A stretch of DNA of 64,000 bases from Candidatus Woesearchaeota archaeon CG10_big_fil_rev_8_21_14_0_10_45_16 (GTDB lineage: Archaea > Nanobdellota > Nanobdellia > Woesearchaeales > GW2011-AR9), in assembly GCA_002762785.1 (NCBI GenBank), contig PCXY01000004.1:1-64000 (forward strand), read 5' to 3'. Both the position numbers and the translations under genes were made by a program. The notes below the pieces were generated by a model that was not told the DNA's origin, searched no databases, and was given only the letters and a program-made list of their open reading frames with translations. This document shows positions 6,270-13,237 of this stretch, piece after piece (position 1 is the stretch's first letter; the number at the start of each line of letters is the position of its first letter).

Positions 6270-8042
6270 TTGAAGTTTATAAACCTCATGACGCTAGAAG
6301 AAGGAGTAAGGATGGACTATCATTATCAAGCAGAACACTTAGGAACTCCTCAAAGCGATTATGTCCTTTGGGCAGCAGAGACTATCGATTCTCTTACACC
6401 AAAATATCAGGGTAGGGAAGGCAGGGTCAGGAAGAGGATGCAGGCGTTTGTCATCCCTGGTGATGTAGAAGGCCATTTCTCTACTGAAGAATTGGAAAGT
6501 CTCCTTGCTGAAAATGAAAGCAGATATCAGGCTTTGCTTTCAGAAGATAGAAGTACAAGAGATAATGCAGATGTTCGGGAAATGCGAGAAGGTATCTGGT
6601 CAAAGATGCTCCAGTCATATCCCGACGTTGCCCTGGGCCATATCGCAGCCGACGATCTTGGCGTCACGTCTTATGCTTCAGAAGAAGTCGATCAGCTTCT
6701 TTCCTACATCCAGCATGCGCAAGACAGCATGGAACGATTACAAACAGGGATTCGGCAGAGATCACTTCAGTCATACGAAAAGATGACTGGATCATTGAGC
6801 GATGAAAACTTTTCTTTGATGAGTGATGCGTCTGATTTCTGTGACCTATTCGACATAGAAGATGTCCAGAAACTTGATCCGATAGAGCGCTTACATCTAG
6901 GCCAGGTCGTCCTGCGCCGTGATCTTCCAGGGATTATGGATCAAAAAGGGACAGCCGATATCATCTATACTTATGCCGAGAAGTTATTTGACGTTTTTAC
7001 TTCTGTTGCTACCAACAACGTCAGTACACGTGATCCCGAAGAATTTGCAAACGTCTTTAATGCGACCGCCAACCTGCTTAATGATTATTTTGACATCGCT
7101 TTTGTCTCAGACAGATGCGAGAAAGAGAAACGAGAAGTAAACTCCCATCGCACGGAGCTTATCGCTAGGAAGAGCTGGCTGATAATGCGTCCGACAACGA
7201 GGGCTGCTGCCGATTCCCCGGCCATCTTTTTCAAGACTGAATATCTTTCACCTGATGAAAAAGTAGAAAAAGTAGCTGCCTGGCTGGACACTCATGATAC
7301 GGCTAAACATGCTAAGGCGTTACGATCAGAACTAAGCGGTTTTTTGGCTGTAGAAAAGATTCTATCTCCTGAAAGTCTTGCCGTTGTCGAAGGGATGTAT
7401 GGACGCTCCGCGAAGCTGCTTTCAAAGACGACTGGTGAATATGCTGCTGTCGATGTATTTGCTGCTGGAAAGATCACTGGAGCATACCCAATCATAGAAC
7501 CCTCAGTTATTGTTGAAGAAGGGATTCCTATAAATGATACGCCTCTGGTAGAGGTTGTGCATGAAAAACCTTCCAGAAGTATTTGGGGGAAAGTCAAGGG
7601 GACTTTGGCAGTAGCTGCTTTTGGGTTAGCTGGAATGCTGGCAGCCTATGTAACGCAAGACCCGATACCTGCGCCGCGGCCCGTAAAGTCAATTCCGGAG
7701 GTAGTAGATCTTTCACAGATCAGAGAACAGCCTGAACAGAAATCTTTAGATAGGCTTATTGAGATGACGCCTCTTAAGATAACAGCTTCTGCTGAACCTT
7801 TGAATTTTACTGAGGAAGAGACAGCAGCTTCTTCAGATTACCAGATCCAGACCATCACTATCGAGAAAGGTTCCGTCCCTTGGCGTATCGCGAAAGAGCT
7901 GAGTGAAAAGGATCCAGACCATAGGGCAACAAAGGAATGGGTGAAGATCCTGATGGGAGAGAACGAGGTCAGCGAGATGGATTCCAACTGGTGGATTGCC
8001 GGCAAGGAAGCCAGGGTGCCTTATTTTCCTGGAACTGATTAA
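6270..8042 (+). CDS. Hypothetical single-TM protein with possible LysM-like C-terminal segment
   Basis: 590-aa ORF; TM segment GTLAVAAFGLAGMLAAYV; C-terminal ITIEKGSVPWRIAKELSEKDPDHRATKEWVKILMGEN...ARVPYF. Confidence 0.7.
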   Translation: MKFINLMTLEEGVRMDYHYQAEHLGTPQSDYVLWAAETIDSLTPKYQGREGRVRKRMQAFVIPGDVEGHFSTEELESLLAENESRYQALLSEDRSTRDNADVREMREGIWSKMLQSYPDVALGHIAADDLGVTSYASEEVDQLLSYIQHAQDSMERLQTGIRQRSLQSYEKMTGSLSDENFSLMSDASDFCDLFDIEDVQKLDPIERLHLGQVVLRRDLPGIMDQKGTADIIYTYAEKLFDVFTSVATNNVSTRDPEEFANVFNATANLLNDYFDIAFVSDRCEKEKREVNSHRTELIARKSWLIMRPTTRAAADSPAIFFKTEYLSPDEKVEKVAAWLDTHDTAKHAKALRSELSGFLAVEKILSPESLAVVEGMYGRSAKLLSKTTGEYAAVDVFAAGKITGAYPIIEPSVIVEEGIPINDTPLVEVVHEKPSRSIWGKVKGTLAVAAFGLAGMLAAYVTQDPIPAPRPVKSIPEVVDLSQIREQPEQKSLDRLIEMTPLKITASAEPLNFTEEETAASSDYQIQTITIEKGSVPWRIAKELSEKDPDHRATKEWVKILMGENEVSEMDSNWWIAGKEARVPYFPGTD

Positions 8043-12854: not shown

Positions 12855-12862
12855 TTTATAAA
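12855..12862 (+). promoter_or_regulatory. TATA box (TTTATAAA) of the tRNA-Ser locus
   Basis: Centre lies about 28 bp upstream of the first 5'-end copy at 12887. Confidence 0.55.
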
Positions 12863-12884: not shown

Positions 12885-13006
12885 ATGCCAGCGTCGCATC
12901 CTTAAAACGATTACTCGTTTTGGGCGCGACTTAGCATTAAATGCCAGCGTCGCATACATAGAGAACAAGTTCTCTGGTCGCGACTCGGTAAATGCCAGCG
13001 TCGCAT
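12885..13006 (+). repeat. Three direct copies of ATGCCAGCGTCGCAT (12885-12899, 12941-12955, 12992-13006)
   Basis: Perfect 15-bp identity; the third copy is the start of the tRNA-Ser gene. The first two are each followed by a hairpin closed by GTCGC/GCGAC. Confidence 0.95.
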
Positions 13007-13148
13007 AACTCGGTGACGAGAGGCGGAGCCTCTGGACTCCCCTCGTCGAGGAATATTGCGCAGGTCTTGAACAGATTTTAGCGATAAGTTAAGATCGATA
13101 GTCAACCTGTTCCTTACGGAATTCTCGGTTCAAATCCGGGCGCTGGCG
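12994..13148 (+). tRNA. tRNA-Ser(UGA), two putative introns (about 13014-13052 in the D-loop; 13072-13103 at 37/38)
   Basis: Acceptor GCCAGCG/CGCTGGC; D-stem GCA/TGC; anticodon stem CAGGT/ACCTG with loop CTTGA-A|A; variable stem TTCC/GGAA; T-arm CTCGG-TTCAAAT-CCGGG; G73; no encoded CCA; followed by a T run. Confidence 0.88.
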
Positions 13149-13237
13149 CTTTTTTTCTTATTTTGAATCTAAAGACTCTCGTCAAGTCTTCCGTTTACTC
13201 GTAAGTATTATAAATAAATTCTTTTCTACAAACACCT

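Follow-up and report, generated by a model that had tools for sequence, protein, structure and literature searches.

The additional 5′ ends that precede a tRNA-Ser(UGA) gene in the window, the whole 64,000-nucleotide archaeal stretch analyzed here, are probably target duplications left by two copies of an undescribed mobile-type DNA hairpin, as judged from sequence comparison. Such an element would land after a CAT trinucleotide, and the sequence on its left (13 to ~100 nt) would be repeated on both sides of the insert. A strand within the insert (X′) would complement the target end before CAT (X), allowing the insert and the left target copy to fold as one long hairpin. The insertion would be tolerated because the gene end is part of what is duplicated, leaving a complete gene on the right. 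In the window, two insertions, or one insertion followed by duplication and divergence, would lie in tandem before tRNA-Ser(UGA). Insertion with leftward duplication is favored because location, orientation, duplication, and sporadic spread all follow from it, together with selection for an intact gene.

Three 5′ ends at one tRNA-Ser locus

The window belongs to a genome of 1.18 Mb that is closest, among named organisms, to Woesearchaeota and related Nanoarchaeota. The 15-mer ATGCCAGCGTCGCAT occurs exactly at positions 12885–12899, 12941–12955, and 12992–13006 of the forward strand, on which all features below are located, and at no other site on either strand of the window; genome-wide, the exact 13-mer GCCAGCGTCGCAT is confined to the same three tRNA-Ser 5′-end copies. 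The threefold 5′ end described in the initial annotation is thus real. Copies 1 and 2 are decoys forming the 5′ strands of modules 1 and 2, and copy 3 is the functional tRNA 5′ end, with G1 at 12994. Module 1 continues with core hairpin 1 (12897–12925; CATCC...GGGC, a CC/GG variant of AC/GT) and an X′ strand, GCGAC (12926–12930), complementary to GTCGC at 12893–12897 and followed by the outer strand AGC. Module 2 contains core hairpin 2 (12953–12979; CATAC...GGTC) and the X′ strand GCGAC (12980–12984), complementary to GTCGC at 12949–12953 and followed by the outer strand GGT. Both cores were identified by the covariance models R1 and R2 and by folding, and both decoys fold into hairpins with these stems (z, −3.4 and −3.5), in agreement with the earlier description of differing hairpins closed by a shared GTCGC/GCGAC stem. 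The motif ACTCGGTAA after copy 2, previously read as a relic of the D-loop, is instead composed of X′ and an outer GGY strand able to pair with GCC of the copy; the equivalent place in relatives carries TCGGC, TTAGGC, GTAAC, and others, with no tracking of the D-loop.

Only the third copy leads into a full tRNA, as had been proposed. The unspliced gene received no call by ARAGORN or Rfam, and joining exons 12994–13014, 13053–13071, and 13104–13148 in silico yielded an 85-nt tRNA-Ser(UGA) recognized by ARAGORN. Exon 1, delimited by comparison with intronless relatives and by ARAGORN on the spliced sequence, is followed by a D-loop intron (13015–13052; 3′ boundary uncertain by 2 nt), exon 2 with the anticodon TGA, an anticodon-loop intron at position 37/38 (13072–13103), and exon 3 with the variable arm, the T arm, and the 3′ acceptor strand; both introns were assigned by comparison with relatives. 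A T-rich run at 13149–13164 is, from its sequence, a likely terminator. In the 98% complete host genome, the Rfam cut-off was reached by only 16 tRNAs, and many tRNA-Ser genes of this genome and its relatives contain D-loop, anticodon-loop, or T-loop (~position 59/60) introns, sometimes several. Standard tools miss many tRNA-Ser genes because these introns interrupt them.

Architecture, distribution, and putative targets of the hairpin module

A BLAST search of the window locus against 60 relatives matched tRNA-Ser plus the decoys, and DNA similarity placed the same module before tRNA-Ser in many genera with one shared architecture: a copy of the gene 5′ end that ends in CAT, a hairpin core, X′ as the complement of the copied end, a spacer, and the real gene. 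The module is ~50 bases long, and its putative insertion point lies directly after CAT, corresponding in tRNA-Ser to position 13 (G10 C11 A12 T13). An alignment of 34 cores revealed a near-invariant CAT...G(U/G)C, with the core (~25–35 nt) resembling 5′-A[A/C]CN(Y)AAAA-loop-UUUUR-G[U/G]C-3′ and with an X′ of ~5–11 nt complementary to the target end before CAT. The module folds into an outer stem, a 2×1 internal loop (AU/C), two pairs, a 1-nt bulge, and an inner stem, whose helix was recovered unguided by RNAalifold. The copied end varies with its own gene (GCCACC, GCCACT, GCCAACA, GCCAGCA), and the complementary strand varies in step (GTGGC/GCCAC, CATCGC/GCGATG). Across 13 modules, 89.7% of the pairs were standard, and 41 double-change cells were counted versus 13.5 in shuffles; in the main helix, 94.8% of the cells paired, with double changes in 10 of the 15 pairs, whereas sliding the partners by one column as a control left ~40–42% pairs. 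The covariance models were built from selected loci, so that the pair statistics of later matches are biased towards the model; the copy-2 repeats were outside the training of R2 and are hence independent. In many tRNA modules, the X′ base opposite T8 is often C (GCGCC) or T (GCGTC) rather than A, a recurrent mismatch that might stop X′ from invading the real tRNA.

A chance origin of the repeats was ruled out by the genome-wide uniqueness of the 13-mer, the covariation, and the model matches. A search for a phage origin of the module yielded no match, and among known RNA families (Rfam 15) only tRNA reached the gathering score, while a permissive scan of the locus returned matches at chance level. 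One R2 match, at window position 6347, was judged on inspection to be due to chance.

Model R1 matched 23 of the 51 genomes of the family and 65 of the 362 genomes of the order (51/223 genera), and in 382 genomes sampled across the phylum the matches were confined to the order. All genomes compared are environmental assemblies; an assembly artefact, named earlier as a possible refutation, is rejected because many independent assemblies carry the module. No title or abstract in the literature searched, to which most subscription journals did not belong, describes this hairpin module. The host genome contains further tRNA-Ser modules on contigs C6 (L029) and C4 (L103, at 164108), and another genome, G337, has about ten cores at unrelated genes. 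In L188, two cores in series enclose a second unit, which separates the outer X from X′.

Occupied and empty orthologous sites, as for a mobile element, were seen between genera at the syntenic tRNA-Ser(UGA) locus downstream of a beta-CASP gene, where five sites are occupied (the window, L220, L233, L239, and L243) and at least 15 are empty, a contrast drawn between genera and not within one species. The regular expression used for the count misses first copies of the GCATC type, those of the window and of L220, as well as one of the modules in L233, and these were added from the loci themselves. No pair of occupied and empty sites was found within a single species: in the genus of G337, and for L184 in its genus, the sequences were too diverged. 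Among the three options offered by the initial annotation, relics of insertions at the tRNA fit these data best, and the phenomenon reaches well beyond the window locus.

The module also targets tRNA-Tyr-like and tRNA-Arg-like genes (L137 and L151, identified by eye from their anticodons) and, as found through the core-only model R2 and weak R1 matches, protein genes, which are named here after their Pfam matches. Sense cores lie a few codons inside genes for RNase PH/Rrp41, amino acid kinase, cyclophilin, pseudouridine synthase, a tRNase Z-like protein, and alanyl-tRNA synthetase; in the RNase PH/Rrp41 gene of the host genome itself (L102 on C5), the core is at the start codon. Antisense cores lie inside the last codons of genes for an AI-2E transporter, an SMC protein, ribosomal protein L34e, and AAA ATPases. 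A leftward duplication would spare the gene in just these two positions, 5′ sense and 3′ antisense, and in every protein-gene case read in detail the second copy retains the complete gene end. Weak or decayed repeats were present at some non-tRNA sites (e.g., L158, L172, and L187). In two families (L198 and L200), a core lies directly 3′ of the stop codon of an AAA ATPase whose protein ends in YM(R/K)MFG, a recurrent target.

The boundaries of the insert were clearest in L184, in which alignment of both flanks delimited a ~26-nt insert, ACTCAAAAATCTCAGATTTTTGGTC(G), between near-identical direct repeats of ~103 nt. Direct repeats elsewhere measured ~44 nt (L156), ~36 nt (L155), 20 perfect nt plus a longer imperfect part (L185), and 29 perfect nt (L043). 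Direct target duplications are thus present, and their length spans 13 to ~103 nt. In L043, X′ is extra sequence outside the duplicated target, and in L184 it overlaps the native upstream sequence.

A reiteration of the 3′ acceptor strand 59–150 nt downstream was observed in 14 of the 95 tRNA loci scanned, a count in which some entries may be neighboring genes or duplicates. The loci include L029 and L103 of the host genome (C6 and C4:164108), L133, L142, and L202, and in several of them the copies are separated by a hairpin, for example GGTTCCAAAATG...CATTTTGATACC. These reiterated 3′ ends are possibly the 3′ counterpart of the hairpin element.

Promoter, predicted leader, and alternative explanations

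The TATA box TTTATAAA at 12855–12862 is suitably positioned for transcription from about copy 1, its first T lying 32 nt from G1 of that copy. The assignment of this box to copy 1 in the initial annotation holds, as judged from the sequence and from the spacing of 32–35 nt between TATA box and tRNA in decoy-free orthologues. Occupied loci generally follow the same pattern, with the TATA box mostly 32–35 nt before the first copy, and empty loci have this spacing before the tRNA; none of the 56 occupied loci has such a box 24–60 nt before the last copy. Because the promoter lies upstream of copy 1, the primary transcript should start there and would carry the two decoy hairpins as a ~109-nt leader. 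The decoys should form part of the precursor and presumably be removed by RNase P, which would cut at copy 3, with the splicing endonuclease excising the two true introns. An organism devoid of RNase P and in need of leaderless tRNAs was ruled out by an RNase P RNA candidate well above the cut-off in this genome.

At every clean locus with differing copies (18 upstream copies; L107, L133, L142, and the secondary L123 rows were left out as unclear), complementarity to the 3′ acceptor strand in 7 of 7 positions is found in the last copy and in no other. Because only the last copy matches, the upstream copies are not 5′ exons, contrary to one of the options raised earlier. A tRNA-Ser locus with an N gap (L041, on C32 of G012), in which copy 1 matches the 3′ acceptor strand, looks chimeric; the sequence after the gap resembles the gene of another genome (L042), and a scaffolding error is likely. 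In the window, the 3′ acceptor strand is predicted from secondary structure alone to pair with copy 1 (P ~0.87) rather than copy 3 (~0.03), in a model that lacks tertiary structure and folding order and shows only that competition is possible. The suggestion that the hairpins sequester the decoys from the acceptor strand finds no support in the thermodynamics; because the predicted pairing favors copy 1, the decoys look like potential competitors.

The same pairing could speak for a BHB-type intron, in which the tRNA splicing endonuclease would remove the stretch from copy 1 to the last copy and leave copy 1 as the mature 5′ end, a reading also compatible with the position of copy 1 at the predicted start site and with the richness of these archaea in tRNA introns, which likewise place extra sequence inside tRNA genes. 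However, at the clean loci with differing copies the acceptor strand matches the last copy, which is the functional one, and mismatches copy 1; no bulge-helix-bulge was found by inspection across the putative junctions, whereas D-loop and T-loop introns show one by eye; the module is flanked by a duplicated gene end; and several modules lie outside tRNA genes. We regard this explanation as extremely unlikely. Somewhat less remote, yet still very unlikely, is replication template switching, by which inverted-strand local duplications would arise de novo at palindromes and no mobile element would be involved. The complementarity of X′ to its local target, the variable duplication length, and the overlap of X′ with native sequence in L184 would suit such events, but the same core recurs at dozens of unrelated sites across many families, so that a source to copy it from is required, and random events would not yield CATAC...GGTCG each time.

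A functional RNA leader deserves more weight, although it too is unlikely as the primary explanation. A conserved 5′-terminal hairpin would lock the first nucleotides and control RNA stability, processing, or expression, with the spread and the duplication being secondary. The transcription expected from copy 1 and the strong covariation of the stem pairs agree with this, as does the leader of the amino acid kinase gene, in which 56 of 59 positions are kept across three species compared with 39 of 58 third codon positions (p, 1e-4); the region upstream of this leader is hardly alignable, and the tRNA-Ser leader in genus g105 shows similar conservation. Such conservation beyond neutral expectation in several loci suggests function at least in places. 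On the other hand, occurrence is sporadic, since most tRNA-Ser genes of the same clade, those at the syntenic locus included, are without the module; in L193, part of the orthologous stem is disrupted; and the long direct duplications remain unexplained by an RNA function. Regulation of tRNA maturation by a leader, another option of the initial annotation, is possible at individual loci, yet it fails as a general account, since antisense cores also occur at the 3′ ends of protein genes, which an RNA function of the leader would not predict. Under the preferred reading of a target-duplicating hairpin, an element selfish in origin may have become useful in places, because the leader is under constraint in some lineages. 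In the amino acid kinase leader (L157, L159, and L161), an upstream open reading frame starts at the copied ATG, and its end overlaps the true start; a GGAGG-like site is located in the leader spacer of L157 and L161. Translational coupling is possible for this upstream frame.

Comparison with known elements and implications

Y1 transposases are the usual movers of hairpins of this kind. No match to the Y1 transposase family (PF01797) was found in the host genome (G000) or in G337, and within the family PF01797 occurred in 7 of 23 carriers and 12 of 28 non-carriers (p, 0.40). Mobilization by IS200/IS605 or RAYT proteins was rejected, as Y1 and the carriers show no association. REP/REPIN sequences, RAYT-linked repeats with GTAG or CGTC tags, among which CGTC REPs are without a known transposase (PMC3733652), resemble our module in being short imperfect hairpins that are dispersed, non-autonomous, and present in several copies per genome and in tandem groups (PMC3733652). 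Unlike them, the module resides inside gene ends instead of intergenic regions, is accompanied by a long direct duplication, and has a closing strand that matches the target; an unpaired GTAG or CGTC tag was absent from the alignment of 34 cores. Mitochondrial GC clusters and repetitive hairpin-forming elements are likewise hairpins, some tens of bases in length, that spread although they encode no enzyme (PMC4478555, PMC2800124); compared by description, the module differs in its archaeal chromosomal location, its CAT target, its target-complementary strand, and its duplications of 13–103 nt. MITEs and casposons share a non-coding insert with flanking direct duplications and the use of tRNA genes as targets (PMC10969869, PMC4046053), whereas the module has no terminal inverted repeats beyond its hairpin and no fixed duplication length, and it occupies the 5′ rather than the 3′ end of tRNA genes.

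The variable duplication length counts against a simple transposase. As a tentative and rather doubtful proposal, the module could represent a novel class of mobile hairpins. A DNA 3′ end at ...X-CAT would be extended along the core of a resident element, fold back so that its own X templates X′, and then anneal again upstream to copy the gene end a second time. The writing of X′ by copying X as the newly made hairpin snaps back is speculative. If true, every new target would supply the sequence for the closing stem of the element, and an intact gene would be regenerated each time. This raises the question of which enzyme places the hairpin behind CAT and equips it with a strand complementary to the target. 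For annotation, the module is a hazard in that a tRNA 5′ end may be placed at a decoy. A target-duplicating hairpin would naturally give rise to long leaders on tRNAs and mRNAs and to tandem 5′-end decoys in archaea, and it would mean that DNA can enter essential genes, tRNA genes above all, harmlessly, as the duplicated target end leaves a full gene behind the insert.
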